Source: Agarophyton chilense (taxonomy: Eukaryota; Rhodophyta; Florideophyceae; Gracilariales; Gracilariaceae). Taken from it: 64,000 bases of DNA. The notes below the pieces were generated by a model. That model made no database searches. It worked only from the letters and a program-made list of their open reading frames with translations, and was not told the origin of the DNA. The stretch spans positions 992,001 through 1,056,000 of the forward strand of contig JARGXX010000115.1 in the NCBI GenBank assembly GCA_030374765.1, in the 5' to 3' direction. The stretch's first letter is position 1, and every line of letters begins with the position of its first letter. Of the stretch, positions 22,838 to 49,488 are shown one piece after another. The translations under genes and the position numbers were made by a program.

Positions 22838-22872
22838 TATCCCTCTCTTTAGGTGACGAACACGCCGTCGAA

Positions 22873-24312: not shown

Positions 24313-24347
24313 TATCCTTCTCCTGAGGCGCGAGTACGACATCCGCG

Positions 24348-29182: not shown

Positions 29183-29217
29183 TCACTTCCCCCATGAAAG
29201 AGAGTCGTCCCGACTCG

Positions 29218-29727
29218 TCAGTGGTTCAGTGTTCCATTGGGGACGGCGTTCAGTTCTGGTATACCAGGAGGATTTCGGGAAATCAACATATCAGGCCTTG
29301 GTTCGAATTCCATTGAAAAGTCTACATCAGGATTATCCTCGATTTGTAGTATAGATGATTCAACGGCATTGAGAAACGTATCTTCAGGATCGGCACTTAA
29401 ATGTCCATATTGCGAGACTATAAATGTGAATAGGAAGAGAATGAACTGCTCGTCTATGGACTCCAGAATCCCATTGTCGTAAACCTTGAACAATTTTTGG
29501 AGTATATCGGCCTTTTCTTCGGTTAGGAACGGGCCACGAAGTTGAAGAAACGCGTAGCAAATATGACAAGAAGCCCAAGCTAAACGGAACTTCACTAGAA
29601 TTTCCTCAGATATATCTTCAAACCAAAGAAGCATGCGCCTTCCGCCAAGCCAAATTCGGCAGTAGAAAGAAGATGCGGCATCAATCTGAAGAGCTTGAGT
29701 CGGATTTGTAACGTGATTATCGGTCAT
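29218..29727 (-). CDS. Extra 3' ORF of element B, 169 codons, unknown
   Basis: This is a sense-strand frame between the chromodomain end of pol and the 3' LTR. It begins MTDNHVTNPTQALQIDAASS and is rich in aromatic and acidic residues (RIWLGGRRMLLWFEDISEE, FILFLFTFIVSQYGHL). The FILFLFTFIV stretch is hydrophobic but short for a membrane helix. I recognise no family. It is uninterrupted and occupies most of the space before the polypurine tract, so it may be a genuine accessory gene of B. It has no similarity by eye to the antisense proteins of E1-E8. Confidence 0.45.
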   Translation of the reverse strand: MTDNHVTNPTQALQIDAASSFYCRIWLGGRRMLLWFEDISEEILVKFRLAWASCHICYAFLQLRGPFLTEEKADILQKLFKVYDNGILESIDEQFILFLFTFIVSQYGHLSADPEDTFLNAVESSILQIEDNPDVDFSMEFEPRPDMLISRNPPGIPELNAVPNGTLNH

Positions 29728-29838
29728 ATCGGAAGGGGTTTGATGACGGTAGAACGGAATGGAAACGAGGGTACGGTGAAGTTCGGCGAGGGTGTGGTGT
29801 GGATGTGGTGACTGTGTGGTGACTGTGCCCCAAAGGTT

Positions 29839-32800
29839 TCAGTGTTTTTGACTCTGTTTATACTGCTTCAGTATGTCTGAGCAGTTTACCAAGGCGGATT
29901 CTTTGAGCCAAGTGTTTTCATGATATGGATAGCCAAGCCATTTGACAAGAAATTCGTTTCTATTTCTTCTTCGCCGGTGATTTAATATGACTTGTACTTC
30001 ATACTCTTCGGATCCATCCGAGAGTTTAATTGGCGTTGGATTTGGAGCTTTATTTCGGGTGAAGGTGCCTTCGTAATTCCTTTTTAGTAGCTGGCAATGA
30101 AACACATCATGGATACGACGTTGCTTCATGGCGATACCAAGATCGAGTCGAAAGGTCACAGGGCTGACTTGTTCAACTATCTTGAATGGTCCACACTATT
30201 TGATGCCAAGTTTGCTTATGGGTCCTGTTTCATCCATATTTAGATTTTTGGTTGAAAGCATTACTTGTTCTCCAACTTTCAGGTCGCAAGGTACTCTTTT
30301 TTGTTGTAGTACTTTTCAGAGTACTTGTTACTTTTGATGATTTGGTCTCTTGCGGTCTTCGTGGCATCCATGACACTAGTCAGAAAGTCGGATGCAGATT
30401 GATTCTGAGATACAAAGCTTTCCAAAGGTGCGGTTCTTGGCTCTTCTCCATATGTTAAGAAAAATGGTGTGGAAGTCGTTGTCGCATGGACCGATGAGTT
30501 GTAGGCTACTTCGAATTCTACCAAGTGTTCATCCCAGTTTGTTTGACGATGGTTGACAAAGCATCTGATCATTTCTTTAATCTTCTTATTCACTACTTCT
30601 GTTTGTCCATCTGTCTGAGGATGGTATGCTGACGAAGATCGCAGCGTTGTTTTAAGAACTCGAAAGACTTCCTTCCAGAATCTGCTCATAAAGATAGAAT
30701 CTCTGTCTGAGATAATTACATCAGACAAACCATGATGACGATAAACGTTGTCAATATAAAGTTTCGCAGTTTCCACGGCTGTGACAGTCTTTGTTGTTGG
30801 TATAATGCGAACTAATTTGGACAGACGATCTACAACCACGTAAAGGGCACTATTTCCTTTTTTAGTTCGTGGCAGCGGTGTGATGAAATCCATCGTTATT
30901 TGAGACCATTTTTTCGTTGGTGGTTCTAGAGGTTGGAGAAAGCCTTGCGGCTTTTGTGTCTTTGGTTTTGTCTCCTGACATCTTTGACAGGTTCTTGTGA
31001 AATGAGATACATCTCTCCTGAGTGTATTCCAATAATAAGACTCCTGAATTCTTCGAAGAGTCTTCTTGAAAGCCATATGGCCTGCAGTTGGTAAATCATG
31101 ATTTTCTCTCAAAACCTTCATTCGGAGGTCGCCTGACGGTATGCAAAGTTTGTTTTCTCGAAATAAGAGATCATTCCTTCTTAAAAATGGTAAAATCGGT
31201 GTTTCATATAGAGAACCAAATTCTGGATCTGCTCTATACCCATCGACGAACGATTGTTGGTCTTTCTTTGATAGTTTGTTGAGAAAATAAATTGAATTCA
31301 GTGGTCGGGTCTTTGACAATGCCTCTCGTAGTAACGAACGGTTACTAACTTGAGTGTCTCCTGCACACTTTGGGTACCTCGAAAGAGCATCAGCCACAAC
31401 ATTGGACTTTCCTTTGATAGGAACGAACCTGAAGTCAAATTCTACGATTTTTTCTAGCCAACAAACTTGACATTGTGATAGATTTGGCTGTGTTTCTAGA
31501 TACTTCAAAGGGAAATGATCTGTGTAAATGGTCAATGATTGACCATGAAGGTAATCTCGCCAAACTCTTAAAGCATCAATCACACTAAGAAGTTCTCTTT
31601 CGTGGGCTGCATAATTTTGTTCCGCGGGGTTAAATGTTCGAGAATGAAATGCAACAGGTCGTGCGACAGAGTTCTCAATCTGTTCCATAATAGCTCCTAA
31701 ATCGTACTGAGATGCATCAGTGGTAATTGAAATGGGTAGATTCGGATCAAAGTGGCGGAGTACGGGGGTTTTGGTTATAGCGGACTTGAGATTTTGAAAA
31801 GCGAAATTCTGCTCCCTTCCCCACTGAAACGGGTTCTTCCCACTAAGCGTTGTAAGGGGCTTCGATATTTGAGAGCAGTTTTTGATAAATCTCCTGTAAT
31901 AATTTACAAGACCTAGAAATGCTTGAACATCGGTCTTGTTCTTAGGCGTTTCCCAGTTGACAATAGCTTTCACTTTATGATTTTCAACAGATATTCCATC
32001 AGAGCTAACCATGTGGCCGAGATATTCAACCTTGCTTCGTAAATATTCACACTTTAAGAGCTTCCCATACAGCTTGTGTGCGCGAAGTTGGTCAAATACA
32101 TGCCTTATGTGTTGAACGTGCTCATCTATAGTTTTGCTGTAAATGAGAATACCATCCAGATAAACAAGGACAAATTTGTCCAGATAATCTTTCAGGACAT
32201 TGTTCATCAGGCTCATAAAGCTTGCTGGCGCGTTGGTTAGACCGAAGGGGAGTACCAAGAATTCAAAGTGTCCATATCGAGTTCTGAACGCAGTGAGCGG
32301 GATAGATTCGTCTGAGAGGCGTAACTGATGATATCCCCAGCGGAGGTCAATTTTCGTGAAAAATTTTGATCCTCTAAGTTGATCGAATATGTCATCAATT
32401 CTGGGAATGGGATAGCTGTTTTTTACTGTGAGTCTGTTGAGCGCTCGAAAATCAATACAAAGTCTCAAGCTTCCGTCCTTTTTTGCTGCAAATAGTACTG
32501 GGGCTCCCCAAGGGCTCGTACTTGGGCGAATAAATCCTTGTTCGATCAGTTCGTTCAATTGAATACGAAGTTCTTTTAGCTCTTTATCAGACATTCGGTA
32601 AACTGCTTTTTTCTGAGGTGTTGCTCCTGGGGTTAGTTTAATATGAAAGTCTTGATCTCAGTGCGGTGGGAGTCCTTTTGGTAACTTGTCAGGAAACAAG
32701 TCATTGTATTCTTCCAGAAGTTTAGACAACCTGGAATCTTTAACAATTTCATGAGATTCGGACTTCAATGAACGAGTGGAGATAGCAAAAACGGGAAGCT

Positions 32801-33302
32801 TTTTCCGTAAGGATTTCTTGATAGCGTTCACAGTGATTAGTTTCTCGGGTTTTTTGATATCGGCTTTCATACGTATTATGTGAAAATTGTATTTGAATTT
32901 AATCTCATTGGTTCTGTGGTTGATGTAAGGGTTGTAATCATAAAGCCAATTTTTTCCTAAAATAACGTCATATCCATATATTGCGCAAATTGCGAAGCGT
33001 CGTTGTTCTTGGAATTTTCCTATTTCGATGGTTACTCCAGCACTGTTGGTTTCCTGTAATACTCTTACGGAGCCGCTCCCCATTTCGGCTTCGTAATTTG
33101 TCTTAATGGTTGAAAGTTTTAGCTGTTTGCTCGTGGCTTTTGACCAAAAGCTAATTTCGGAGCCATTGTCAATGAGCGCAATACACTTCCTGCCATTAAC
33201 ACGTATCCTGGCTAGAAGTAGTCCGGCTGATGGTGTTTCAAATGGTGACGCTATATGAGACGTGAGTAGTCTATAAATGCCTTGGTTCGGTGGGTTTCTG
33301 TG
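29839..33302 (-). pseudogene. B pol: protease, RT, RNase H, integrase, chromodomain
   Basis: The protease segment is at about 32960-33300 (GSEISFW, ICAIYGYDVILGKNWL). RT is at about 31980-32560 ([37 protein letters not shown]). RNase H is at about 31380-31780 ([35 protein letters not shown]). The integrase zinc domain is at about 30960-31100 and the core at about 30470-30900 ([20 protein letters not shown]). A chromodomain lies at 29860-30050 (VILNHRRRRNRNEFLVKWLG, then YPYHENTWL). It encodes all enzymes for copying and integration. Pol is nearly continuous, with few breaks besides the solo LTR at its upstream end. Confidence 0.88.
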
Positions 33303-33307
33303 TGGGT

Positions 33308-34171
33308 TGAAGAGCAACGTCCTCCAGGGAGGTTTTTGGGGACTTAAGTTTTTTCCGGAGCCTCCGGCGTGCAACCTCGTTATGTGTAGGAGTAATCCGT
33401 ATTTACGGCGATGGCCGGAACGCCGGTGATGCACCGCCGGGACCGGGTGCCATACACGTGGCCGCAGCGCCCGCGCGACACGTGGCCGCCAGATTGGCCC
33501 CTTTTGTTAGACGGACATTTAGCTATTTAGGATAGACTTTATTTATTCTATTCTACGGTGACTACAGTACTTAGGCCGCCGGCCTGGCGGCCGCCGGTCC
33601 AGTAAAGTCTGCCCAACAAGGGTGATCTTGGTCTTCCAGATCTTGACTCTGGGTCGAACCGCCTGCTGTGATATACAACTCTTTACGGAGGGATTTCCCG
33701 TGGGCACGGCTTCCCAACCCCCTTGGACTTTCAAGCAGCCTTCGTGTGTTGGGCATCTATTCTCACTTTCGTGGTTCCGCCCGTGTATACGGTTTGCTAC
33801 ACCTGGCAGTGCTGGCTATTCCCGAGTCCCCTCTTGCGACTCGTGGTCAACCTCGCCCTCTAGCCTCCGTTCCCATTTTCCTTCCCTTTTCCTCCCCTTC
33901 ATTGGGCAATTCCCCCTCTTGCGGCTCGCACTGACACCTGTCGTGCTCGCCACTCTCGTGGGTTTTGCCTCCTCAGAGGATACGCAAGCACCGCTTCGGC
34001 GGATATTCTCGGCTTCTTTCAGCCTCCCTGCGCTCGTCGCGACGGTTCGGCTCCGGCTTACACCCGGCATTGCGCGCCGATCCCTGGGAGGGCTCTACCG
34101 CGCCGGTTACCTCGTGAGAGGAAGATCCGGACGTCTTCGTAGGTTTTCCCCCTTGGGGGCATTGTCCTACA
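33308..34171 (+). repeat. Solo LTR type 1 inside element B
   Basis: This 864-bp LTR type 1 (TGAAGAGCAACG...GTCCTACA) has no internal element sequence and a perfect target duplication tgggt at 33303-33307 and 34172-34176. Solo LTRs form by recombination between the two LTRs of one element. It lies between gag and protease of B and carries one 24-bp unit. Confidence 0.93.
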
Positions 34172-34356
34172 TGGGTCTAGGGTATCTGCAGATTCGATGG
34201 TTCTTTGGTTAGTTGGTTGGTTTATGACGTGTTTGGTGTTTGGTGTTTCAATGGTGTTCGTTGGTATCCTAAGGAGGTTCAATGGTGGATTAAGGGGATT
34301 CGATGGTGTTCTAGTGGTGTCGCGTGGAACTGACGCTGGTACTGAACGTACATTGG

Positions 34357-35229
34357 TCAGTTCCTTTGAGAGTTTTTTGGGCAGCGCGCATCACGCGCCA
34401 TATGTCCGGGTTGTCGACAGCGATAGCAAAGTCCTTTCTTTCGACACATTTCTCGTTCTTCCTTGGTCAATTTCTCTAACTTCATGTTTCCAATATCCAT
34501 CGGTACAGGTCCTTGAGATGATCCTGAGGTGCTCGCTTGCCTGCCAAACCGTGCCTGTCCACCCCGACGGAAAGCTGACTCAACACGTTCTGCATCTTTC
34601 ATGGCTTCAATTAAGGACTTGTAATCATTGGTGCAGAGTTCTTTCCAAATGAAGCTCTTCAATCCTCTGGTATATCGATCGAGCTGTTCTTCCATACTGA
34701 TATTGGGAATATCAAGAACAATTTTTAAGAAGTCCTCATTATACTGCTGAACATCTTTGTACTGTTTCCAATTACTAAGCTTATCCCTTGCAAGCTTTTC
34801 TTTGTTCACAGTAGTAAATCTCTTTTTCAGATGCTCGAAGAGGTCATCGAGAGAAATCAACTCCAGTCCATTGCGTTCTTGGGCTAGATACCACTCATGC
34901 GCTGCGCCACTAATGTAACTGAGCGCAATTGGTATGGCTTTTTCGTCAGGGGTTCCTTCAAGGTAATTACGGACATGAGTTATCCAACTTTCAATATTCT
35001 GCTTGCCAGAAAAGTTTATTGGTTTATTAATCTTCGGAGCGGACGAGGAGCTTCCAGAACTCGCCAGTAGGGCCATTGAAGATTCCAACGCTGATATCTT
35101 GGTCTGAGCTTCCAACTCTAATCCTTCCATTTTTCCGCGAGTTTCTTCCAAGGCGCGAGCCATACTTTGCATAATCTGGTTTGCACAGACTTGGGGGGGC
35201 GTGCCAGGAATGCCTGGGGTCGATGCCAT
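34357..35229 (-). pseudogene. B gag
   Basis: This is an uninterrupted 290-codon gag frame of an otherwise interrupted element. Residues 20-60 may form a coiled coil. The retrotransposon gag domain spans about 70-215 (INFSGKQNIESWITHVRNYL, AAHEWYLAQ, FTTVNKEKLARDKLSNWKQY). A zinc knuckle is near 268-283 (CYRCRQPGHMARDARC) beside a PMDIGN motif, common before the knuckle in this family. It would assemble the particle and bind RNA. Confidence 0.85.
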
Positions 35230-35728
35230 TGCGTAAACTGTTTGAGTGAGAAAACCTTCGAAATTGGTCCGAAATCGAGGGTCCGACCAATAAATTAGAG
35301 AATTTTTTGAACCTATACCAGATCGGGCAGCGCGTGTGGCCTAGTGGGTATGGGCCGCAGTCTGCAACTAAAAGGTCCTGAGTTCAATTTCCCTTCGCTG
35401 TAAGGTTCGGAGTGGTTCAATTAAAGTTTCTTCATTTCACTTGCGTAGCGTCAAGAGTTTGGGAAGATGGTAAGCCCTGTACGGCAACTTTTCCCTTGGC
35501 AATGCTAAATAATATGAACGCAGCGGAAACTGGAAGACAACCACAAACGGTGGCTTAAAGGGTTGAACGATCTATTCTTAAAAATCTTTGTTTTTTGGAT
35601 GGTTTCTGCAACCGCCAATTCAGATGTCTGAGAGCGGGGTTTTGAACCCTACTCCTGGATTTGTGGCAAAAATGAGCAGTTTGCAAGAAATAGTATGGGT
35701 AGTACTTGGGCAACAAATTTGTTGGTAT
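35230..35728 (+). other. B inter-ORF stretch with tRNA-derived SINE-like sequence
   Basis: Within this gene-free stretch, TGGCCTAGTGGG (35337-35348) fits an RNA polymerase III A box and AGTTCAATTTCC (35381-35392) fits a B box, 33 bases apart, as in tRNA-headed SINEs. A complete tRNA cloverleaf cannot be drawn. The sequence then continues non-tRNA to about 35590 with an A/T-rich end. A second B-box-like motif (minus strand GGTTCAAAACCCC, about 35637-35650) is present. Assignment to a SINE is tentative. Confidence 0.4.
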
Positions 35729-36340
35729 TTACTGGAAATAAGCTTGTTCACAGCGGTTTTCTCTCCTAACTGCGGCTTGATGCTTTTTTCCACCTTTATG
35801 ATCTTCGTAGTGCTTCCAGTTGTTGAAAGATCGAATACCACAATTGTAGCAACCTGGAGCGGACTTCTGATTCAGTACTATGTTCCTGTGTCGGCTGCCA
35901 GAGAGATGTTCACCAAGTTGAACGCGGCTATTGAAACGTAAATCACACGTGTCGCAACGAGGGGTTTTGAGGCGACGACGGAGAGTGCGCTTACGTTGCC
36001 GCCTGATACGGTGGGATGCTACACGAAAGGTGTGGAAGTTGGCACCCTCGTCGATTGGGAGTAAGCGACGGCTTTGGGCCTTGTTATCCTTAGTTGCACT
36101 TGGTCTCGGTTCGAAGGTTGACAACAGTTCACGAAGAGGAGACGACTGCGAAGAAGGTTCGTACGGTGGTGGAGTACGCGCTTCCAAGGATCTGAAATGG
36201 TTACAATCAGCAGGGTCGATCTGTGGTGGCGGTGGTGGCGGCGGAGATGACGGTGGTTCGGAGGAGATATCCGTGTTCGTATAGAACGACGGCGGAGACG
36301 GCGGTATCTGAGACCGGTTTATTGAGCTCATTGGAAACAC
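35729..36340 (-). CDS. Extra 5' ORF of element B with two U1-type zinc fingers
   Basis: This 203-codon frame lies between the primer-binding site and gag, in sense orientation. Residues 1-90 are Pro/Ser-rich with a run of seven prolines (33-39). Residues 110-125 are very basic (RIRRQRKRTLRRRLK), a likely nuclear or RNA-binding signal. Finger 1 uses C129, C132, H145, H151 (CX2CX12HX5H) and finger 2 uses C164, C167, H181, H187. This spacing is typical of U1/matrin-type fingers that bind double-stranded RNA or RNA-protein complexes. A zinc-finger ORF ahead of gag is unusual for Ty3/gypsy. It could be a captured host gene or an accessory gene of the family. The frame is uninterrupted. Confidence 0.6.
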   Translation of the reverse strand: MFPMSSINRSQIPPSPPSFYTNTDISSEPPSSPPPPPPPQIDPADCNHFRSLEARTPPPYEPSSQSSPLRELLSTFEPRPSATKDNKAQSRRLLPIDEGANFHTFRVASHRIRRQRKRTLRRRLKTPRCDTCDLRFNSRVQLGEHLSGSRHRNIVLNQKSAPGCYNCGIRSFNNWKHYEDHKGGKKHQAAVRRENRCEQAYFQ

Positions 36341-36469
36341 GCAAAAACGCGGCAGAAATCGACAGTCAGTAAAGAGCTGGATTCCTGTGGCTCATCCAAA
36401 CCTGGGGAATTTTGTATAGAAAAATCCACAAGGGCTGGATGGTCACCAGTTTCAAGTGAGTGCAATACT

Positions 36470-36487
36470 TACTTGCGATGGCTACCA
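36470..36487 (-). promoter_or_regulatory. Primer-binding site of element B
   Basis: On the minus strand TGGTAGCCATCGCAAGTA starts one base inside the 5' LTR. The tRNA is not identified. It differs from the TGGTCTCCCG site of the GC-rich elements, confirming a separate lineage. Confidence 0.55.
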
Positions 36488-36488
36488 A

Positions 36489-36940
36489 TGTTAGAACACT
36501 GGTCAGTTGTTGAAAAGGTGAAACTTCGTGACGGCCGAGGTGAGAGTTGGCCGGTCGACAAGGGTTTATATAGGGTACTGAACCTTCGAAGAAGAGGTCA
36601 TAAAGAGTGTTTTCTAATGTACCATTCTAATTGGGTGCCGTGTGAAACATGGTTGCTTCCACGAGGTTCAATCGTGCATGCGTGTCCAATGCCTCGTTGT
36701 CACTTGCTCGATGATGCTGACAGTGACAGCTTTGTTGATTGTGTCAAGAATGTCATCTATAAAGTCATTGTGACGTGTGAGATGACAATGATCCTTGAAA
36801 TGACGATTAGGGTCGAAATGGATTATGGGACTGGACCGCCAAAGCACTGAAACGCAAATAACATACTTAAAGCATAGTATAACTAAATCATAACATAAAT
36901 GCATAACATAATTGACTAAAAATCATCTGAATTCCTAACA
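36489..36940 (-). repeat. 5' LTR of element B
   Basis: This 452-bp partner of 28731-29182 is followed by target duplication gggag. Confidence 0.92.
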
Positions 36941-37163: not shown

Positions 37164-37472
37164 TGAAGTGCAACCCTCGTGAGGGCCGTTTTCCAGGACT
37201 TGGTTGTTTTTCCGCCTCGGGCGATACTTGTGAGATCTATGAGTAATACCGCTACTAGCGGGCTGGCGTAGCCAGGTGTATACGCGTTGTACGCGAAGTG
37301 CACCGGCGGCCGTGCGCCGTGGCCCCGATTCGAGTGTGACTTACCCACGTGTACCACGGGAGGCCCAGGACAGGTTGGCACAGCATAGCTGGATATTTCT
37401 CTATTTATTTAGCTTTATTACACTAGGTTAGGGAGCTCTTTACAGTATTCTACACTATATAGTGCCAGGGCG
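37164..37472 (+). repeat. LTR type 2, left part of E6 5' LTR
   Basis: These are the first 309 bases of the type 2 LTR (TGAAGTGCAACCCTC), with palindrome CACTATATAGTG at 37453-37464. The LTR is cut by E5 at the hairpin gccagggcg. Its continuation is at 48844-49328. Confidence 0.9.
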
Positions 37473-38338
37473 TGTAGGACAATGCCCCCAAGGGGGAAAA
37501 CCTACGATGACGTCCGGACCTTCCTCTCACGAGGTAACCGGCGCGGTAGAGCCCTCCCAGGGATCGGCGCGCAATGCCGGGTGTAAGCCGGAGCCGAACC
37601 GTCGCGACGGGGGCAGGGAGGCTGAAAGAAGCCGAGAATATCCGCCGAAGCGGTGCTTGCGTATCATCTGAAAAGGCAACACCCACGAGAGTGGCGAGCA
37701 CGACAGGTGTCAGTGGGAGCCGCAAGAGCGGGAATTGCCCAATGAAGGGGAGGAAAATGGAAGGAAAATGGGAACGGAGGCAAGAGGGCGAGGTTGACCA
37801 CGAGTCGCAAGAGGGGACTCGGGAATAGCCGGCACTGACGGGTGTAGCAAACCGTATACACGGGCGGAACCACGAAATTGAGAATAGATACCCAACACAC
37901 GAAGGCTGCTTGAACGTCCAAGAGGGTTGGGAAGCCGTGCACCACGAGAAATCCCTCCGTAAAGAGTTGTATATCCGCGCAGGCAGTTCGACCCAGAGTC
38001 AAGATCTGGAAGACCAAGATCACCCTTGTTGGGCAGACTTTACTGGACCGGCGGCAGCGAGGCCGGCGGCCTAAGTACTGTAGTCACCGTAGATTAGAAT
38101 AAATAAAGTCTATCCTAAATAGCTAAATGTCCGTCTAACAAAAGGGGCCAATCTGGCGGCCACGTGTCGCGCGGGCGCTGCGGCCACGTGTATGGCACCC
38201 GGTCCCGGCGGTGCATCACCGGCGTTCCGGCCATCGCCGTAAATACGGATTACTCCTACTCATAACGAGGTTGCACGCCGGAGGCTCCGGAAAAAAACTT
38301 AAGTCCCCAAAAACCTCCCTGGAGGACGTTGCTCTTCA
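37473..38338 (-). repeat. LTR type 1 (3' LTR of E5)
   Basis: This 866-bp LTR, read on the minus strand, starts TGAAGAGCAACG at 38338. One 24-bp CACGTG unit is present. A polypurine tract lies directly beyond (38339-38356, minus strand CTTAAG, then G-run, then ATA). Confidence 0.92.
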
Positions 38339-38386
38339 TATCCCCCCCCCTTAAGACAGGGCGAACACCTCGAAGAGGAAGTCGGC

Positions 38387-40162
38387 ATGGCAGCTCGTCG
38401 TGATAAGAGCGCGTCCAACACCGGGTCTCGGGAAACCAACACACCTTCACCAAGGATCGCACACAAGCTCTTCGCATCCGATTCCAACCACAGCACACCA
38501 ACACGTACCATGTCCAACCCCGACCGTCATAACACATCCGCGACTCCCGCCCTTGGCGGTTCCACCGGCTTCCGGTCCGCGCCCCACCCTGGGGATGTTA
38601 CCAACCTCGCGTACGGAGACCGCCGTATTGGCGCCCGCTTTCGCGGACAGGCGGACCCTCCGCAGTGGCCGACCTACGACGCCCTTGTGGGTGCAAATCC
38701 GAGAACTCGGCATGGCTCCGCGATGTTGCGGTATGCGCCTTGGTTTCACCCATTGGCTGTCCACGACGAGGATTTGATCCAGTCCTACACCGATAATTCG
38801 GAGATGCTCCCGGGCGACCTGCCGGGCGTGGTGACCATGTCCTGGGATTGGCGTAATCGTATCTCCATCCCGGTACACCACATACTTCGCCGACGCGGTG
38901 AATCCTCTGCGGAGGCTCAGGCCGCGCTTGTGCGGATCGCTTATCTCAAGCACCATCGGGCGCCTTTCGAGTTCCCGACACCGCCAGAGGTCGAATTAGA
39001 CGTCCACCTTTACCGCACTCGCGGGGAAATGTCGTACTGTGACCGTCTTAACGGATTGGAAACCCTCGCTTGGAGGGGCACACCGATCGCTTGGCAAGAA
39101 GCCCTTTGCTGGGGAAGACCGATTCTTCGGGCAGAGTTCCGCTACCAACCGCGGCAGTCGCGCTCGAACTTCCTTCAGAACTTCATCCGCGATGTGCGGC
39201 GTTGGCGGGCCCGGACCGGGTATTTCGTACCGTACCAGAACACGGAGATTGAGCGCATCGCGCCTGCTCACCGACGTGGTCGGTACGTCAGTCTCCCAGA
39301 CTGGTGGTCCTCCTTGGAGGCGTGCTGGGGTTGCTTCATTGAGCTGCCCCCAGTCTTCACCTATGTAGGGTCGTCGTTCTTGAACGATCCCCAGTCGGGG
39401 TGGTGGTCCGTCGTGGTAAGCGAATGGGCCGTCTGCACTGCGGCTTTTATCCTCGCTGAGGCGTACGACCAATACCGATTGTGGTACGTGCCACCGCGTG
39501 TGCGGGCTGCGATCCGCCATTTGGACATGCGCATCCCCCTCGGGGGCGAGGCGAACGAAGAAGAGATGCTGGGCCTCCTCGACTTTGTGGAGGGGGTCCA
39601 TTGGGATGAGGTCCCGCTGGAGAACTCCCAACGCATTCAACTGCGTCGCGGGTCTGGCCCCGGATTCGGGAGGAATACCGCGCTAGCGGGGGATTTCATC
39701 TACTTCGACCCCTGGGAGTACCACGAGATCAGCTGCAAGGAAGCGGAAGCCAACCGGCATGCGCCGCGTGAAGTCCCGGCCGACCACCCGCGAGGGTATG
39801 TCGACTCGAGCGACTATTACCGCGGCTATGCGGATGGTGACCCGATGGTCGACAACGAACCGGGGGATTCGGGTTACGCTCCGATGGAGGATGACGAGTC
39901 CGGAGAGGCCGGTGAGGGGTCCGTTGAATACGGTGGTGCGGCTCCATCCGGGGCTGCTGATGCCGTGCGAACGGATTCCCATCCGACTCCATCGGTGGCG
40001 GGCCCACCCGCAACTGCCGCTGGCGCGGAGCGGGGCGAGGTCATCGCGCGCTTCCTTCGGGAGGTGAGGCTTCGCCCTTCCGAGATCTCGGGTGATGTGG
40101 CCGCCATGCGGGATGCCTTAGCCAACCGCCTGGGCGGGGGTCCACCTCGTTCGGAGGAATGA
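38387..40162 (+). CDS. E5 antisense ORF (aORF), uninterrupted 591 codons
   Basis: This antisense gene of E5 is nearly identical to 19639-21414. The ATG at 38387 lies 48 bases from the LTR edge. Residues 1-85 are Ser/Thr/Arg-rich. The central domain spans about 90-460 and carries WPTYDALVGANPRTRHGSAM, MLPGDLPGVVTMSWDWRNR, an AFILAEAYDQYRLWYVPP block and RVRAAIRHLDMRIPLGG. Next come FIYFDPWEYHEIS, an acidic stretch and the C-terminal block EVIARFLREVRLRPSEISG. The stop at 40162 is followed 60 bases later by AATAAA (40222-40227). It has no membrane segment, signal peptide or known catalytic motif. The frame has stayed open while gag-pol beside it did not, suggesting either recent selection or chance. 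The family is not recognised. Confidence 0.78.
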   Translation: MAARRDKSASNTGSRETNTPSPRIAHKLFASDSNHSTPTRTMSNPDRHNTSATPALGGSTGFRSAPHPGDVTNLAYGDRRIGARFRGQADPPQWPTYDALVGANPRTRHGSAMLRYAPWFHPLAVHDEDLIQSYTDNSEMLPGDLPGVVTMSWDWRNRISIPVHHILRRRGESSAEAQAALVRIAYLKHHRAPFEFPTPPEVELDVHLYRTRGEMSYCDRLNGLETLAWRGTPIAWQEALCWGRPILRAEFRYQPRQSRSNFLQNFIRDVRRWRARTGYFVPYQNTEIERIAPAHRRGRYVSLPDWWSSLEACWGCFIELPPVFTYVGSSFLNDPQSGWWSVVVSEWAVCTAAFILAEAYDQYRLWYVPPRVRAAIRHLDMRIPLGGEANEEEMLGLLDFVEGVHWDEVPLENSQRIQLRRGSGPGFGRNTALAGDFIYFDPWEYHEISCKEAEANRHAPREVPADHPRGYVDSSDYYRGYADGDPMVDNEPGDSGYAPMEDDESGEAGEGSVEYGGAAPSGAADAVRTDSHPTPSVAGPPATAAGAERGEVIARFLREVRLRPSEISGDVAAMRDALANRLGGGPPRSEE

Positions 40163-40494
40163 CCGGAGCTTCCGGTAGAATGTAGGGCGGCGCCACTAGG
40201 GCGCACTTGCCAGTAGTGAGAAATAAAAGAAGAGGGTCGCCTTTCCGACGCCCTTTCCCAAGTCCACTTCTTTCTTTCCGGGGTACCGGCCTTCAACCGG
40301 GGTTCCGGCGTTGCAGGGAACCAGCCTAGCTGGGAGTTCTGTGTTTAACGGTGGGCGCTTCGCGCGCGGACCAGGTAAGTGGCACGACCACCAACGACGT
40401 TGGGATAGCGTGAGCGGTTGCTTCCTTCCCCGCGTTGGGGCATGGACGGAGATGGCGCGTGGCGCCATCAGCCATTCCATTCCGTGTTCACGGT
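40163..40494. other. E5 spacer between aORF and pol
   Basis: This convergent spacer of about 330 bases has a plus-strand AATAAA at 40222-40227, a plausible poly(A) signal of the aORF. The rest holds GC-rich short inverted repeats (for example CCGGAGCTTCCGG near 40164) and no gene. Confidence 0.5.
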
Positions 40495-43400
40495 TTATCC
40501 CTCTTGGGCGTTTACCAGCGTGGCTGGGAGTGCGGTCCCCGCAAGGCGGTGGTATCGCATTACCGCGGAGCGTGGGAGGTGCTCGATGGGCTCCGGGGTG
40601 TCCCACTCCGGCCCGTATCCGTACCAGCGGGTCCGGTACTGGAGTTCCCCGTGCTCATAGTAGCTATGTCCGACGATTTGGTCGAGAACGTACTCCTGCA
40701 CGTAAACTTGCCGGCCTTGCCGGGTGGTGGTGGCCCGAGCTTCAGCGCCGCGTGGTGCTGGGCTCGTCGTCGCCTGTTCCGGGTCACCCGGTTTGTCATT
40801 CCGCTCTGCGGTTGTTGCCAGGTTGCCGGGGCTGCCGTACTGCTTCGCGGAAGTTGCCGGCGAGGCCGGGTTGTGTTTCCGCTGGGCGGTAGGGGCTTCC
40901 CTGAAGTCCGCTCTTACCGCGAGTTTGCGGGGGTCCTTCCGTCTTGGTGACGGTTCGCCAGAGGCCTCCGCTTGATTTGCGGCATGCGGCGTTCCCATTG
41001 GTGGGCAGTTTCCGCTGTGCGGTGCGCCGTGGGCGGTGAGTGGTTCACCGTCCCGGCGATCCGCCTCCGCGGGGTGGCTGTCAGCCAATGACCGGGATGC
41101 CGGGTGCCCATTGGTCCGATCTCCCGCCCGGGTCACGTGACCTTGAGGACGGGTGGTCGGACCGTCGCAGACGGTTAGCTCCGATTGTTCGGAAAGGGAG
41201 GCGGTTTTCGACTTGTCGTCGCGCCCCTTTTCCCCCATGGGGTTCGTACCGTTCTCAAAGGAGTGGTTCGCTAGACCTGCTTGCGCAGCGCCCGCCGGAG
41301 TTCCGGTATCGACCGAAACGCTCGGTGTGCGACCGTGAATGTGCGTGGAGCCCTCAGTTGCTTCCACGCGATGCGGAGCGTCCGTAGGGACTCGCTTCCC
41401 GGCTTCGGGTCTTCGAGCGCCTTGGTTCCCCTTGCGGGGTTGCGTGGCGGTCGGGTTGACCGCTGCGTCCCGCGGGAGCGGATTGACGTCCGGCGACGAT
41501 GCCGGTTGCCCGCTCGGGGGCCTTGCCCGGGGTGTCCGGTTAAACTTCCGTTGTGACGGCGATGCTTCCGCGATTGAGCGAGTCCCCTCCCCCTCCTTAG
41601 ACGGAGCGACGGGTGATGGTGGGCTAACCGCATGGCGGGTACAGATACCGCTGCGCGGCGCCCGTAAGTGTAGCTGGCCGCGAGGGCCAGATGTTTCCGG
41701 CATTGTCGGTGGTTCCGATAAAGTCGGTATATCGGAGAGACCCCATGAGGGGTGCGGTACCACGGCGGGGGGTGGTGCCAGGTATCCGAGGCCGTTTCGA
41801 CGGGGGCTGAGGCTGATGCGTTTTCCGCCTGCGGCGGTGGGGCGGCTACGATGCGGTCTTGTGAAAGACGTTCGTGGTCGCCGTTCTTGTCCACCACAAC
41901 GGTGCCGGGGAGGGAGGACACGACCCGGAACGGACCTTCAGCGACAGGCGAGAGCTTGTGACGCTTGTCAGTCCGGGGGTTGTAGTACTTCCGGCGAACG
42001 AACACGTAGGTTCCCGGCTTGGGCGGTGCCGGTAGTGGTCCGTGTAAGCGGTTATCAAAATCCCTCGTGTAGGCAGCCTGGGCACGTTCCATGGACTTCC
42101 GGGCGACAGGTACGAGCTTGGTAAGCCAGTTCTTCCACTTGAGGCGGTATTGACCCACGGATGGGAAAGAGTTGACCCTGTGTTGGGGTTCGACGGCCAC
42201 TGGCGGGGGGTGTCCTGGAGAGCACAAGCTCGAAGGGAGTCAGACCGGTTGTCCGGTGAACCTGCGTGTTGTAGGCGTAGATGATAGCATCAGAATAAAT
42301 GTCCCACGTCATTGGGTGATCGGATACGTAGGAGCATAGCGACGCGAGTAGGGTGCGGTTGAAGCGTTCCACCTGCCCGTTTGTTTGCGGGTGGTAGGTG
42401 GTAGTAAACAGGTTCTTGACGTCGAGGATGCGGCAGACGTCCTGAAAGAACTTAGAGGCGAACTGCTTACCGTTATCGGATAGAACCTCTATCTGAGGGC
42501 CATAAACGAACGCCCAGTGCGTAACGAAGGCGTTCGCAACCGTGAAAGCGGTGATCTTCCGTAAAGGTACGGTGTGCATCAGCTTCGAAAAGCGGTCAGT
42601 GATAACCAAGAGGAACTTGTTTCCCTTGCGCGTCTTGAGTAGAGGCCCGAGAATGTCGATTGCGACAAACTAGAGGGGCGCCCTTGCGGGGAAAAGCTTC
42701 ATCCGTTTGGAGTGCTTCCGGAGTTTCACCCGGTTCTTTGCGCATTGGGTGCAGAACTGCACCGTAGCGTAGCAATCAACCGCCATAGCGGGCCAATAAA
42801 AGTCCCTTCGCAGGGTTAGATAAAGTTTTCTCCCACCGGAGTGTCCCCCGAGGGTCGGGTAGTGTGAGAGGTGGAGCACCCTGGTTTGCAGGGTGTGGGG
42901 GACCACGATCTGGGATCGGTGGTCCACCGTCCGGACGAGGTAACAGATGTCGTTTACCTCGAACGGGAGGTCCTCTCCACCGTTTAGGCGGGCCCGTATG
43001 CGCGTGCAGAACGGGTCGCCGAAATGTTCTCGGATCATCTCCTCGGTGGAGATGGGTACAAAGGTCCCGGTACGAGTGTTTCATTCTCGCGCGCTGCGAA
43101 TAGCTCATCCATTTCCATGGTGTCTTCCCCGGTTTCGGGCCAGTCCGACTCCGTCGGTGTTTCCCCTTCCAAGGTAAAGCACGGGATCTCGTCGACCTCG
43201 GGTCGGCAAGTGCTTCACCTGTCGTAGGTAATCGAGAGAGGGCCTCTGCTTGGGTGTTCTGGACACCCTTTTTGTAGACGACCTCGAAGTCGAATTCTGC
43301 TGAGCGGAGGCGCCACCGCATTAAGCGGCCAGAAGGATCTGCGATGCTCAGCAGCCACCTCAACGAGGCATGGTCCGTGTATACGGTGAAATGAACGCCC

Positions 43401-45631
43401 ATGAGGTATGGGCGCAGAGTGGATAGCGCCCAGACCACTGCGAGGCACTCCTTCTCGGAGACCGAGTAGTTGCGCTCGTGGACGTTCAGCGTGCGGGACC
43501 AATAGCCAATTGGTTTGCGTTCCCCCTCGGGGGTAGTTTGGAACAGTGCTCAGCCCAACTGGTGTTCACTGGCGTCGGTGTCGATGGAGTGGGGAAGCCC
43601 AGGTTTGGGCAAGGATAGGATGGGAGCTGTCGTAACTGCCTTAATCAAGGAGCGAAAAGATTCCGACTGATCGGTGGTAAATGGCGCAAGCTTCGGTGGC
43701 TGGCCCTTCCGCAGTAGCGCGTTTAGCGGAGCGGCGATATCCGAGAAACTCGGTATAAACCGTCGATAGACGTTGACCAGACCTAAAAAGGATCGGAGCT
43801 CCTTTTGAGTACGGGGCTCCTTCGCCTCGCAGAGGGACTTGATACGAACTTGTTCGATCATTAACCGTCCTGGACGGATGACGTGCCCGAGATACTTCAC
43901 CGTGTCGGTGAAGAACTCGCACTTCCTCAACTTGAGGGTTATTCCTGCGTCTCGCAGTACGGTCATCACGTCCCGCACGTGGGTCAGGTGATCGTCCAGG
44001 TTTCCGGAAAAGACAATGATGTCGTTCAAGTAGACAACGCACGTGCGCCACTTGAAACGCGACATCAGTAGGTCTATTGCCCTTTGAAAGGTGGCCGGTG
44101 CATTGGTTAAACCAAACGGCATCCGCTTGAAGCGGTAGGAACCCGAGTGGAAAACAAACGCGGTTTTGTCTCGGTCCTCTTCCCGGACTGAGACTTGCCA
44201 GTAGCCCCAGTTAGCATCCAGAGCCGTAAACACGGTAGCGTCCCCGAGCGAGCCTATACACTTGTCCATGCGCGGAATCGGGTAGGTGTCCCTCACGGTG
44301 ACGGCATTGAGGCGGCGGTAGTCAACGCAAAACCGCCACGTGACGTCAGCCTTGAGGGCCAGCACCACCGGTGAAGCCCAAGGAGATTGGGCGGGCTCGA
44401 TGACTCCAGCACGGAGCATCTTGTCCACCTGAAATTCTTCCTCCTCCCGAGCTTTCGGTCCCGCCCTGTAAGGGGGTTGTGCAACCGGACGTGCGTCCGG
44501 TAGCAAGTCTATCCGATGTTCGGTTGTATTGATCTCACCCAGTGAGCCGTCCCACATTGTGGTAAACTCGCGTAGCATTCCGCGTAAGCGGTCCCGGTTT
44601 GAGACCGGTACATGACTCAGGTCCAGGTCCTCGAGGGCCTTGATCGGGTCTATCTTATCGTAGCTCGTAGGCTGTGCCCTGGTGTCAGGTGTGGGAACCG
44701 ACGAGGTCGGAAGTGCATCCGTCTTGACGGTTTTATCGAGCGCCAACTGCTGTGCCTCCCCGGAGGTTTCTGCACCGGATACCGGGAGACCATCCTCGGT
44801 AGAGGGAGTTATTCCGAGTACTTCGGCAGCCGTCACCTTTGTAGGGAGCATCGCGAGCGGGTGCGGCGTCACAGACCCAATGACTTGGTTCTTTGCCAGC
44901 GTCTGGGGAGCCTTTCCCAGATTGGCAACCAACACCCTGAAAGGGGAATTTGGCGTGACTTGCACGATTCCGTTCGCAACGGTTAACTGAAATTTCTCGT
45001 ACAACGAGGGCAAGGTCTGAACAACCCGAAGACCGTGTTGACAGGAATTGACTGAAACCATAACCTGGCTCTCCGGAGGTATGGTGACTGACGAGGCAAC
45101 GCGTAGCTTCGTAGAATCCCGGTTCGCCGGGGTGGGTTCCTGCGCAGCAGGTAGAGGAACGTGTTTCTTCGATGCCCGTTTCAGCGGTTGACGAACAATG
45201 GGAACGGTCGATCCGTCCTCAAGTTCCACCTGCTTAAGGCGTGGGCGGATGGCGTCGACAAACCTGTCGCAGTAGTCACATCCCAGTATAACTGGCGCGG
45301 CCAGCGAGCGGCACACAATAAAAGTTAGTTTAACCACCATCCGCTCTAGCCTGACGACCAGGTCGATCACACCAGCCGTTTTCAACGGGTTTTTATTGGC
45401 GTCTGAGACGTCGGTTACCGTTTCAGAACGGATGAGTGACCGCAATGGCGGGGGTAAAACCGATTCCACAATAAAGTTCGGCCCAGCACCTGTATCCAGG
45501 ACAGTGAGATATCTCACCATAAACTGCGTGTGCAGACAAAGGTCAGCGTAAACCTTGTAGTTACGCTTGGCCATTACCAAGACTCTATCCGGGATCCGGT
45601 TATTTCTAATCCGTATCCACGGTCGACGCAA
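40495..45631 (-). pseudogene. E5 pol: protease, RT, RNase H, integrase, linker, chromodomain
   Basis: The protease is at about 45200-45520 (LTVLDTGAGPNFIVES, VILGCDYCDRFVDA). RT is at about 43950-44480 ([37 protein letters not shown]). RNase H is at about 43210-43640 (YTDHASLRWLL). The integrase zinc domain is at about 42700-42890 (LSHYPTLGGHSGGRKLYLTL, CTQC) and the core at about 42240-42610 (TTYHPQTNGQVERFN). The GPY/F module is at about 41880-42100. A linker rich in Pro, Arg and Ser leads to a chromodomain at about 40500-40720 (WYGYGPEWDTPEPIEHLP). It is broken in several places. Confidence 0.88.
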
Positions 45632-45765
45632 AACACCGAGGTGTTAAGAGTCCGCGTCTGCGGTGTCCTTCCTTGTCAGGATTTTCACCGGGGAGCGAGG
45701 CATCGGCGCCTCGGGCGTCGTCAGCCTCAACTCTGAGGACGCCTCTTCCGAAAGGGAGACTCCCT

Positions 45766-47874
45766 CTATTCTTTTCCCTGTACAGGGTCCTGGTCGGGCG
45801 AAGGCCCGACTTCCTCGGCAACGAGTGCATGATTACGTTGCACGGTAGCTACCGCAGGAGCGGGTTGAGATCCACCAGCGTGGTTTGGGGCTGGTGCGGC
45901 GCGTGCCGGCTGAGCCGGTTTGTATCGAGAATTCGGAGTGTGAGCCAATGCGTTGGGGAAGTCCGTCTTCGCGCGGAGATATGACGTGAGTGGCACGGAG
46001 CCCTTCTCCTGTAGGGAGAGGGCTTCGTAAATATCCACCACTCGCGCCATATCGCGTAGCGATAAAAGGCATTGCGGGGAGGTGTGCCTGCGCTCGTAGC
46101 ACAATTGGCACACCAACGTCACTCCCGCGTTTCGCAGTACGGCATTCCGAGCATCGGTGTATCTTCCGGGTTCCCGGTTTCCAACCCATCCAGGGCGCTG
46201 ACTTCGTGTCATTCCGTTCGAGTATGGCATACGGGGGGCTGGAGTGCGGCGGTCATTAAGATAAAAGACCTGCCCGTTCTCCGTGTCCCTTGCGGTTGAG
46301 TCAACCGAGCCATCCGTCGTAGACGGTAATTCCGTTGTCGGAATAGATAAACCATCGTGATGGATGACATTCATATTGTCCTAACCCTGTTTGGGGATGC
46401 CATCCGTCGCAAATGACGGTGAAGAAGAGTCCGACTCAAGCAGAATGCCTTAGCGGCCTTCGACCGGGTTCCCGGATTGCGTGCACGTAGTGCATCTCCC
46501 TCTACGCGGGCAAACTGTACGAGTTCAAGGTAGGTCACCTTCGGCTCTTGTTCCCTGTAACGGGCGACAAGAGTCTTGATGGCTGGATCCAAGCCATCAA
46601 TGAACATCGTACAGCGTTCCCCAGCGGGGTATACATTACCACAACGGTGGAAAGCCTTATTCAGGCGTACCGAGTAATCGGTCTCGAGCTCGCCGGAGCG
46701 TTGTCGAGTGTCTCGAAAAGCGAGTATCGCCGCTTGTATCGCGGAGTTGGTTGCGTAGGAACGCAGGAGGTACTGCACGGCCTCGGGCCAGCAGGTCACA
46801 CCTCCTTCGGAGGCTCGCGACGAACCCCGAACCGACAAAAACTGATCTTCAGCGACAACCCTTAGAAAGCGGGGTAGCGCCACGTAGGCTTGTCCTTCGT
46901 TCATTCCGAGTATATCGGCTTCCACTACAAAGCGGTGTAGGAAATCCAAGACCAGAATTGGATCATCTCCAGTAAACGACTGGTTACGAAGTGAAAGCTG
47001 CATCCGCTTGATGCAGTCTTTCACTTTACCCGTGTCACGCGGTGTCCGACCTAAAGAGGAATCTTCTAGCCGGTAATACCAGTAGGACAGGAGTGTCCTG
47101 TGCAGAGGGTTGGTGGGCTTCAAGGGTTTGAGGCCCGGAAGTCGCCGACTCTTGGGGCGCAACCGGATGGCCTCGTAGGTGGCAGAGGACCGCTTTGGGC
47201 GGGAAGAGCGCCCATAACGATCCTGGGTCATCGCTCACCGACGAATCGGAACTCTCCGAGTCACTCGGTTTACCGTCCGACTCAGATGATGAGTCGGACG
47301 GGTGTCCGTGCTTACAGTTAGAATCCCGGTTCTTCCGGCTCTTCCGGTTCCGCGACTGGGTCTCTCGATGAGAGACAACCGGTCTAGCCGCGTTCGCGGG
47401 AGAGGTTAACGTCCTCTCGACCGACTCAAGTCGGCTTCGGAGACGCTCGAAGCGATTCTCCATACCTTCTACGAAGGAAGACGGAGCGCCAAAACACTCG
47501 AGTAGTGTATTGACGTCTGACCGCAATACGCGGATATCCTCGGCTAACTCACTTGGAGGGGGGTTAGCGAGGCTTCCTCGTAAAGAGGTGAACTCCCTCG
47601 AGAGGGTATTGTGAGCAGCCCGCAGGGAGCGGAGCTGCTCTTCCAAGCGTACAATCCGTGCTTGGTCGACCAACCGCGGAGGCGGAGAAACCACCGTTGC
47701 GACGGTCGTTAACCCGGAATCGGGCTGCGGGTTTTCAGTGCTGGTGACCGGTATCTCCCGGGAATGGGGTGTTGGAGCCAGGGCCTGTGGAACATCAGTG
47801 CCCCTGGCATCACCGCTTTGGCGGGAACGGCTGCGTGTTGCAGGAGGCTCCATGCTAGGTAGTTTCCTCGGCAT
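45766..47874 (-). pseudogene. E5 gag
   Basis: The likely start is at 47874 (MPRKLPSMEPPATRSRSRQS), chosen by similarity to MSRLPSEAEP in E3 and E6. Order: Pro/Thr-rich N-terminus, coiled coil (about 47400-47660, RIVRLEEQLRSLRAAHNTL), Ser/Asp-rich low-complexity stretch (about 47220-47310), retrotransposon gag domain (about 46480-47000, LSLRNQSFTGDDPILVLDFL) and CCHC knuckle (CQLCYERRHTSPQC, about 46070-46120). It is broken in about two places. Confidence 0.83.
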
Positions 47875-47976
47875 GGGCCACACCGTTTCGACGGAAGAAT
47901 AGAAAGCAAACCGGTGAGACCGGAGAAAACCCGTTAAACGGAAAACAAACTCAGAGGGGACACAAGCGGTCTTGAC

Positions 47977-47994
47977 TTCTAAGTCGGGAGACCA
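47977..47994 (-). promoter_or_regulatory. Primer-binding site of E5
   Basis: On the minus strand TGGTCTCCCGACTTAGAA lies three bases inside the 5' LTR and is identical to the E3 and E6 site, although their LTRs differ. Confidence 0.65.
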
Positions 47995-47997
47995 ATT

Positions 47998-48838
47998 TGT
48001 AGGACAATGCCCCCGAGGGGGAAAACCTACGAAGACGTCCGGATCTTCCTCTCACGAGGTAACCGGCGCGGTAGAGCCCTCCCAGGGATCGGCGCGCAAT
48101 GCCGGGTGCAAGCCGGAGCCGAACCGTCGCGACTGGCGCAGGGAGGCTGAAAGAAGCCGAGAATATCGGCCGAAGCGGTGCTTGCGTATCCTGTGAGGAG
48201 GCAAAACCCACGAGAGTGGCGAGCATGACAGGTGTCAGTGCGAGCCGAAAGAGCGGGAATTGCCCAATGAAGGGGAGGAAAAGGGAAGGAAAATGGGAAC
48301 GGAGGCAAGAGGGCGAGGTTGACCACGAGTCGCAAGAGGGGACTCGGGAATAGCCGGCACTGCCGGGTGTAGCAAACCGTATACACGGGCGGAACCACAA
48401 AAGTGAGAATAGATACCCAACACACGAAGGCTGCTTGAACGTTCAAGAGGGTTGGGAAGCCGTGCACTACGGGAAATCCCTCCGTCAGGAGTTGTATATC
48501 CGCGCAGGCGGTTCGACCCAGAGCCAAGATCTGGAAGACCAAGATCACCCTTGTTGGGCAGACTTTACTGGACCGGCGGCAGCGAGGCCGGCGGCCTAAG
48601 TACTGTAGTCACCGTAGAATAGAATAAATAAAGTCTATCCTAAATAGCTTAATATCCGTCTAACAAAAGGGGCCAATCTGGCGGCCACGTGTATGGCACC
48701 CGGTCCCGCCAGTGCATCACCGGCGTTCCGGCCATCTCCGTAATTACGGATTACTCCTACTCATAACGAGGTTGCACGCCGGAGGCTCCGGAAAAAACTT
48801 AAGTCCCCAAAAACCTCCCAGGAGGACGTTGCTCTTCA
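47998..48838 (-). repeat. LTR type 1 (5' LTR of E5)
   Basis: This 841-bp LTR has no full 24-bp CACGTG unit, only the flanking half motif. It is followed by target duplication gggca. Confidence 0.92.
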
Positions 48839-48843
48839 GGGCA

Positions 48844-49328
48844 ATCTCGCCCTGACACTCAGTAAACCTCCCCAACCAGGGTTCTTGGCTCTAAGTCTTT
48901 TTCCGCTTTCGCGAGTCTTCCACACTCTACGGAGGTGAAGCCGCGTTACTAACTGTAGACTTATCCACCCTGCGTCAACAGGAGACTCACCGCTCTTAGC
49001 GTGTATATCTTTCATACCCCTGCCGTGTTCTCGCCCCAGTATTGGGTTTGCTACATATTTCTTTTGGCTCTCGTGGCCCATGCCCCCGATCGCCCCCACT
49101 GGGTGGTCCCCCCTTTATCACTTGCCCACTCCCGTGGAATACAGCTCATACCTGGTCTGCTCCCTTCTAGCATCCCGCACCCTCCCCGCTTGGCGTGCCG
49201 GTGAACCCCGGCCTTACACCCCAACTTAGTCGTGTTCACTCCGGAGAGGCTCCGTCGCCGTGCTACCCTCCTTGGAGGAAGACTCGGACATCTTCGTGTG
49301 TTTCCGCCGCCCTTGGCGTTGCACTACA
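48844..49328 (+). repeat. LTR type 2, right part of E6 5' LTR
   Basis: These 485 bases continue LTR type 2 after E5 and end GCGTTGCACTACA at 49328. Together with 37164-37472 they make 794 bases, the same length as the other copies. Confidence 0.9.
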
Positions 49329-49331
49329 AAC

Positions 49332-49350
49332 TGGTCTCCCGACTTAGAAG
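49332..49350 (+). promoter_or_regulatory. Primer-binding site of E6
   Basis: TGGTCTCCCGACTTAGAAG lies three bases after the 5' LTR and would pair with a tRNA ending CGGGAGACCA (possibly tRNA-Tyr). Confidence 0.65.
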
Positions 49351-49488
49351 TGTAGGGGAACCTGGTTTGGTTGTTTTTCACATTGCTGTGCTGTCTTCTC
49401 TCGTCGAGATCTGCTTTCCATTTTCTTGGTTTGGACCCACTTAGTGGAAGCTTTTGTTGTCCTATTCTTAGTGGTCAACGCTACAACC

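Follow-up and report, generated by a model that had tools for sequence, protein, structure and literature searches.

Antisense genes of LTR retrotransposons are on record from flowering plants and a fungus, where their function is without explanation. The window, meaning the whole stretch of 64,000 nucleotides analysed here from the red alga Agarophyton chilense, contains an open reading frame that runs opposite to the gag-pol of its element. The question that this locus raises is whether the frame is a gene of that kind and, if so, whether it serves the element or the host.

The window is a nest of LTR retrotransposons, and the host genome assembly comprises 79.8 Mb in 135 contigs. The initial annotation had placed an antisense gene between the chromodomain and the 3' LTR. 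This is confirmed by an intact frame of 591 codons, the antisense ORF (aORF), in the Ty3/gypsy element E5, which is laid out as follows (LTRs located by self-BLAST, with their ends read):

37473-48838, minus strand: element E5 (Ty3/gypsy)
37473-38338, minus strand: 3' LTR of E5, 866 bp, TG...CA
38341-38352, minus strand: G-rich polypurine tract of E5, adjoining the 3' LTR, 34 bases from the aORF start
38387-40162, plus strand: aORF of E5 (family A), 591 aa, intact, opposite gag-pol, between the chromodomain and the 3' LTR
40222-40227, plus strand: AATAAA, about 60 bases beyond the aORF stop
40498-40722, minus strand: chromodomain at the end of E5 pol, convergent with the aORF
43553-45631, minus strand: reverse transcriptase part of E5 pol
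47998-48838, minus strand: 5' LTR of E5, 841 bp, TG...CA

E5 is inserted into the LTR of another element (37164-37472 and 48837-49328), and its flanks, TGCCC and CGCCC, are identical at four of five bases, consistent with a 5-bp target duplication. The longest open run in the segment 38339-40494 is 607 codons. In 1000 first-order Markov resamples of the same segment, the longest open run has a mean of 204 codons and a maximum of 411, and in 60 resamples of the whole window it is at most 392.

Copies of the antisense frame in the window and the genome

Nine aORF genes, including that of E5, are found in the window by tblastn. Besides E5, these are:

19639-21414, minus strand: family A (E1'), 591 aa, intact, segmental duplicate of E1 (tblastn match 19642-21414)
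2182-3954, minus strand: family A (E1), one in-frame stop (tblastn)
6820-8751, plus strand: family B (E3), interrupted (tblastn match 6949-8721)
24351-26279, plus strand: family B (E3'), interrupted, segmental duplicate (tblastn match 24480-26249)
57167-59098, minus strand: family B (element 48837-59930), interrupted (tblastn match 57197-58969)
5342-5989, plus strand: family C (E2), N-terminal part, separated from the rest by the inserted E3 (tblastn match 5549-5983)
17363-18604, plus strand: family C (E2), remainder beyond E3 (tblastn match 17318-18550)
22873-23520, plus strand: family C (E2'), N-terminal part (tblastn match 23080-23514)
61908-63726, plus strand: family E, two matching stretches with a break (distant tblastn match 62656-63078)

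Both frames that had been described as uninterrupted for 591 codons, in E5 and E1', are indeed open. The related frames reported from the other elements are likewise recovered by tblastn, but not all of them are independent. Positions 1396-10597 and 18856-28125 form a direct duplication of ~9.2 kb with ~98.7-98.9% identity and the same nested insertions (self-BLAST), so that E1/E1', E2/E2', and E3/E3' are three pairs of one origin. In E2, the related gene is present, but as a single gene split by the E3 insertion. The sequence blocks that had been quoted as common to all copies are also less general, as family E (window copy near 62-63 kb; representative L016, 21-22% identical to E5) is without several of them.

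All three window copies of family B have a common in-frame stop in the poorly conserved N-terminus, and the copies of this family fetched from elsewhere in the genome are open in three of three. The window copies come from what look like two independent insertions, and two of them contain a 385-aa ORF that starts at a downstream ATG and spans much of the core. A further Ty3/gypsy element of the window (28731-36940), the one other that was examined, has a match to neither a chromodomain nor the aORF. It is AT-richer, matches a Ty3 capsid, zinc knuckle, protease, and RT-RNaseH-integrase, carries a 203-aa C2H2 (zf-met) ORF upstream of gag (35732-36340, minus strand), and has a family-A LTR inside it at 33308-34171.

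The host genome holds five aORF families, termed A (E5 type), B (E3/E8 type), C (E2 type), D, which was found using a Gracilariopsis chorda protein, and E, the distant type at 61.9-63.7 kb. The representatives of these families are 21% (A-E) to 52% (B-C) identical to one another. Candidates scored were at least 71 with the A-like protein P0002, at least 77 D matches, and at least 31 near-full-length E matches; the searches with B and C gave at least 107 and at least 150 matches, which overlap. The matched part is free of stops in 54 of the 77 scored D-family matches (at least 77 in the genome). Coding capacity is conserved in most copies, though the fetched copies are the best-scoring ones, which biases the sample towards intact frames.

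At every one of the 58 loci fetched with enough flank, a chromodomain lies antisense to the aORF and downstream of its stop. These loci represent 57 distinct places and comprise 18 of family A (two from the same place), 20 of D, and 20 of E, the fetched B and C loci being too short. The distance from the aORF end to the chromodomain is 183-476 bases (A, D, E). A Ty3/gypsy pol that ends in a chromodomain is one mark of a chromovirus, which these elements probably are. In the pol of A and B, the Pfam scores for PF00385 (E 0.001 to 4e-5) fall slightly short of the curated threshold; in D and E elements the domain was recognised by similarity. On the other side of the gene, a pyrimidine run stands within 130 bases upstream of the aORF in 18/18 A, 2/3 B, 3/3 C, 20/20 D, and 17/17 eligible E loci, 22-91 bases before the start, and it is absent from one of the three B loci. 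In E5, the one element in which adjacency to the LTR was read, this run is the polypurine tract as it appears on the opposite strand. Read directly in E5, the gene occupies the space that separates pol from the 3' LTR and runs against gag-pol.

Some copies occur in head-to-tail arrays. Family-E aORFs are spaced by 9734 bases at C5:10318-50609 (five copies) and C78:14761-25850 (two), and family-A aORFs by 9197 bases at C68:3138181-3158350 (three copies). These arrays may be tandem elements with LTRs in common.

Selection on the antisense frame

Selection was followed by sorting variants into private ones, present in one copy and mostly arisen after insertion, and shared ones, present in two or more copies and mostly derived from source lineages. 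With such a comparison it can be demonstrated that an accessory gene benefits the element and not its host. The within-family tests used 16/18 A, 20/20 D, 10/20 E, 3/3 B, and 3/3 C loci, after removal of matches that had gaps or lacked part of the N-terminus and of copies with 99.5% identity or more. Shared and private changes were compared in A, D, and E, as B and C have too few copies.

From family to family, the third codon position of the aORF frame diverges most. The fractions that differ at positions 1/2/3 are 0.39/0.35/0.62 for A-B and 0.36/0.31/0.62 for B-C, and the signal is weaker for pairs with E (A-E 0.59/0.56/0.69). Within families, omega on shared changes is 0.44 in D (95% range 0.25-0.73) and 0.15 in E (0.04-0.38). 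Private changes over the whole gene give 0.84 in A, 0.89 in D, and 0.87 in E. Replacement to silent counts are 28:26 shared vs 217:86 private in D (Fisher p 0.004), 5:12 vs 114:48 in E (p 0.001), and 14:17 vs 111:60 in the core of A (p 0.03), where shared omega is 0.36. The purifying selection that the initial annotation expected is therefore borne out in D, E, and the core of A, but is not significant over the whole gene of A, where shared omega is 0.74 (95% range 0.46-1.27) and the counts of 43:24 vs 156:76 do not differ significantly (p 0.37).

A yardstick is provided by the integrase of the same 10 E copies (214 codons), with omega 0.08 on shared and 0.81 on private changes. After insertion, the aORF decays almost neutrally, much as integrase does in family E. 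In the A core this decay is not fully neutral, as private changes there have an omega of 0.70 and a replacement share of 0.649 vs 0.724 expected (p 0.02). Since shared changes are constrained and private ones near neutral, the aORF is used by elements that transpose and then decays, and it is not kept for the host. The aORF thus codes for protein and is an accessory gene on which selection acts on behalf of the element and not of the host. Together with the chromodomain found at all 58 loci, these tests support the earlier proposal of a separate conserved gene of chromodomain-bearing elements.

The same results bear on the origin of the gene. Retrotransposons do capture genes, and a captured host gene, carried as a passenger or kept for host benefit, might be suspected. 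A lone homologue could be missed, as the surroundings of 58 loci were checked and the genome matches are the best candidates listed. Nevertheless, single copies are not kept by the host, given private omegas of 0.84-0.89 over whole genes, and five families have the gene in common, which makes this origin very unlikely. A mere passenger is refuted by the selection tests.

Apparent conservation of a frame may also be a by-product, with the constraint lying on a gene of the sense strand or on the DNA as such. In the -2 frame, omega on shared changes is indeed low, at 0.32 in D and 0.27 in E, since this frame and the aORF have their wobble base at the same site. That frame is full of stops, however, with means per copy of 19.0 in A, 20.7 in B, 24.7 in C, 21.3 in D, and 11.4 in E, which rules out sense-strand overprinting, and its identity between families equals that of codon-shuffled controls (z -1.5 to 1.2). 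Across the sense frames, stops average 3-25 per copy. Other alternative frames stand modestly above shuffled controls in the closer pairs (z up to 4.4, B-C), which is ascribed to leftover DNA similarity. A by-product is scarcely credible on these figures. The test set beforehand, which looked for an omega near 1 in the aORF frame or for constraint in the sense frames, was run, and neither outcome was obtained.

Equally, the transcript rather than the protein could matter. Non-coding antisense RNAs of retrotransposons do exist (PMC7264820), and one of them could regulate the element with the ORF being incidental. The codon-position bias and the deficit of shared relative to private replacements in the aORF frame render this highly improbable, and they refute it as the only function; an added role of the RNA is possible.

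The protein, its relatives and its lysine content

The aORF protein of ~600 aa has a variable N-terminus, a ~400-residue core rich in Trp, Arg, Gly, and Pro, and, after an acidic linker, a conserved C-terminal segment of short length. Its 89 strongly conserved columns include 15 Pro, 15 Arg, 11 Gly, 9 Glu, and 7 Trp. Whole proteins of A-E are acidic to neutral (pI 5.5-6.6). The N-terminal 100 residues are basic in A, B, C, and E (pI 10.8-12.0) and acidic in D and the database relatives P0007 and P0008 (4.6-4.7). No membrane segment was found in 13 proteins, in which the highest 19-residue mean hydropathy is 1.70. An env-like extra ORF was considered and rejected, as the aORF is antisense to pol and no 19-residue window in these 13 proteins exceeds that value. 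An Argonaute hook was likewise discarded, because GW/WG motifs are not conserved.

Among the best 8000 candidates per search, eight proteins are relatives (P0001-P0008), six of them related to A-D and two to E. The closest named proteins among these candidates are from G. chorda (60% identity) and Gracilaria domingensis (44%), and the two relatives of family E are 31-32% identical. Four named A-D-related homologues are among the matches listed, three from G. chorda and one from G. domingensis. The profile search proposed for the 591-residue protein was carried out, and neither it nor the sequence searches of Pfam, PHROGs, and PDB with aORF proteins gave a convincing match. The best weak matches are Phage_zn_bind_4 (E 0.039, one of 10 members) and DUF7691 (E 0.038, P0007), followed by phrog_22291 (E 0.09) and PDB 8vb2 (E 9.4). 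Of 11 pattern matches in viral contigs, none was confirmed.

The proteins of families A-D are very poor in lysine. Within ~600 residues there are 4 lysines in A, 3 in B, and 2 in C, vs 61 or more arginines, and the reference copies of B and C have no lysine after residue 34. The ratio of lysine to arginine is 4/61 in the family-A aORF vs 35/56 in reverse transcriptase (p 2e-6) and 3/61 vs 23/40 in family B (p 6e-6), the two families that this comparison covers. The aORF is also poorer in lysine than the gag-like ORFs (p 0.012 in A, 0.0005 in B), and the gag-like and chromodomain ORFs of A and B are intermediate (2.1-4.7% K). PMC10665810 defines a lysine desert as a stretch that contains no lysine over 150 aa or more, or over at least half of the protein. 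By this measure, 12 of 13 proteins (A-D and P0001-P0008, of which P0003, P0005, and P0006 look partial) have a desert, with a longest lysine-free run of at least 171 aa. Family E has none; it contains 17 lysines, its longest lysine-free run is 102 aa, and its K:R ratio does not differ between aORF and integrase (p 0.13).

Composition accounts for the scarcity in part. AAR codons number 4, 3, 2, and 7 in A-D vs a Markov expectation of 7.6-10.7, and the GC-rich composition partly explains the low lysine. The supply of lysine is not the limit, since Asn and Glu are not reduced and private changes readily create lysine (12 of 156 private replacements in family A, vs 3.4% expected). Shared replacements to lysine (2/43 in A, 1/28 in D, 0/5 in E) are not clearly rarer than private ones, so the within-family test does not prove selection against lysine.

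Lysine deserts occur in proteins of the ubiquitin system and in some viral proteins (PMC10169902, PMC10665810). San1, Slx5, VHL, and SOCS1 are examples from the ubiquitin system, and their likeness to the aORF protein is in composition only. The Pfam searches gave no ubiquitin-ligase domain in aORF proteins, nor any other convincing match. With many copies in one genome and a lysine desert, the gene offers a study system with a concrete biochemical hint.

Known antisense genes and the proposed role

Grande and RIRE2 are placed near Retand among plant elements. A fungal counterpart, brtn of Boty-like Ty3/gypsy elements, was reportedly described by Zhao et al. in 2011. HBZ, a small bZIP regulator, is a viral antisense gene, and no match to a bZIP-type domain was seen in the aORF proteins. 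According to PMC7264820 and PMC11963269, antisense additional ORFs lie between pol and the 3' LTR in Grande of maize (gene23), RIRE2 of rice, and Retand of Silene, where they occur in most copies and related families and are without known function. The red-algal aORF resembles them in place, in antisense direction, and in its presence across most copies and related families; their hosts are flowering plants, whereas a red alga is the host here. Retand elements belong to a non-chromovirus lineage in which Transposase_28 is encoded by 97% of the clusters (PMC11963269), while the red-algal elements have a chromodomain in pol and Transposase_28 was not found. This domain (PF04195) is absent from the Pfam matches of 10 alignment members to E 5 and from those of P0007, P0008, P0002, and family C to E 10, although filters drop most weak matches. 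It has 0 matches in the host genome, and the control genomes likewise have 0.

The brtn gene of Botrytis cinerea also lies antisense between pol and the 3' LTR (PMC7264820), outside plants but in a different kingdom from the red-algal host, and it is likened to the aORF by position, not by sequence. The same source describes HBZ of HTLV-1 as driven by an antisense promoter inside the 3' LTR, which resembles the promoter proposed below. Among the open-licence PMC papers listed by the literature searches (including PMC5970526, PMC5408684, and PMC8365987), no report was found of a red-algal gene of this kind or of a lysine desert in one. Within the reach of the searches, the earlier description of the gene as undescribed holds for the protein family, but it is too broad for the class, as antisense ORFs at this position were known, including one in a fungal element (PMC7264820). 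As far as the searches reach, what is new is this protein family, its host group, and its lysine desert. With no detectable kin among the known antisense genes and with selection at the level of the element, the red-algal aORF suggests that this gene position may have been filled more than once.

Given the polypurine tract, or pyrimidine run, near the aORF start, transcription of the aORF is expected to start on the antisense strand, within the 3' LTR or at its edge. No TATA-like box was found on either strand of the E5 LTR with the strings used. At the other end, AATAAA lies 62-63 bases past the aORF stop in 18/18 family-A loci, and none lies within 400 bases past the stop in 20 D and 20 E loci. 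A poly(A) signal common to all families was therefore rejected, AATAAA being seen in family A only and the B and C stretches being too short to tell. Families C (L063) and D (L031) have in common the string AATAGTAAACT, noted by eye ~40-65 bases past the aORF stop, which is possibly a 3'-end signal.

An antisense promoter in the 3' LTR would drive the aORF as described, and the gene product is probably a soluble, non-membrane accessory protein that aids the element in the host cell. We give this reading, which leaves the precise role aside, a probability of roughly 0.7.

What the help consists of is more tentative. Four Piwi-domain matches (Argonautes) are present in the host genome, and a search for C5 DNA methyltransferase gave 0 matches there vs positive results in 10 of 14 control genomes, which makes RNA-guided silencing a likely host defence. 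Sense and antisense transcripts that converge would pair into double-stranded RNA and feed RNAi, so the aORF must repay that cost. A host-interaction factor that counters silencing or restriction is our guess, at somewhat less than even odds.

Nearly as likely, though doubtful too, is a nuclear regulator, which like Grande gene23 or HBZ would bind to DNA or chromatin and govern integration or the transcription of the LTR. The position and orientation of the gene match those of the aORFs of Grande and Retand, whose proteins are nuclear (Grande) or predicted to bind DNA (Retand) (PMC7264820, PMC11963269), and the Arg-rich core (15 of the 89 conserved columns) and the basic N-termini of A, B, C, and E are in keeping with it. 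Against this stand the lack of Transposase_28 or another convincing DNA-binding domain in the searches (Phage_zn_bind_4 at E 0.039 in one of 10 members), the pI of the whole proteins, and the acidic N-termini of D, P0007, and P0008.

A structural helper in the virus-like particle, such as a second capsid-like or packaging protein, is unlikely. Element-level selection like that on pol would suit it, as would the faster evolution of the aORF compared with reverse transcriptase (A-B identity 49% vs 72-79%), which gag-like proteins also show. However, profile comparison with four gag or gag-like pieces revealed no similarity (hhalign probability 0.2%; the A pieces have no Pfam gag match and the B match is weak, E 0.035), and an antisense mRNA is an odd route to a bulk particle protein.

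For a factor that counters silencing or restriction, the lysine desert would offer protection from ubiquitylation. Lentiviral accessory proteins Vif and Vpr follow a strategy resembling ubiquitin-based antagonism. A candidate lysine-free adaptor, expressed antisense from the 3' LTR, might mark a silencing or restriction factor for ubiquitin-dependent destruction while itself escaping ubiquitylation; this is a speculative and rather improbable version. If true, it would place a Vif/Vpr-like strategy in red-algal LTR retrotransposons.

A minor observation concerns the host assembly itself. Its plastid-like contig 39 carries phycobilisome genes, in line with a red-algal host, and has them twice (38445-41661 and 224129-227691), with further linker genes on other contigs; the doubling suggests a circular genome assembled with an overlap or a repeat.
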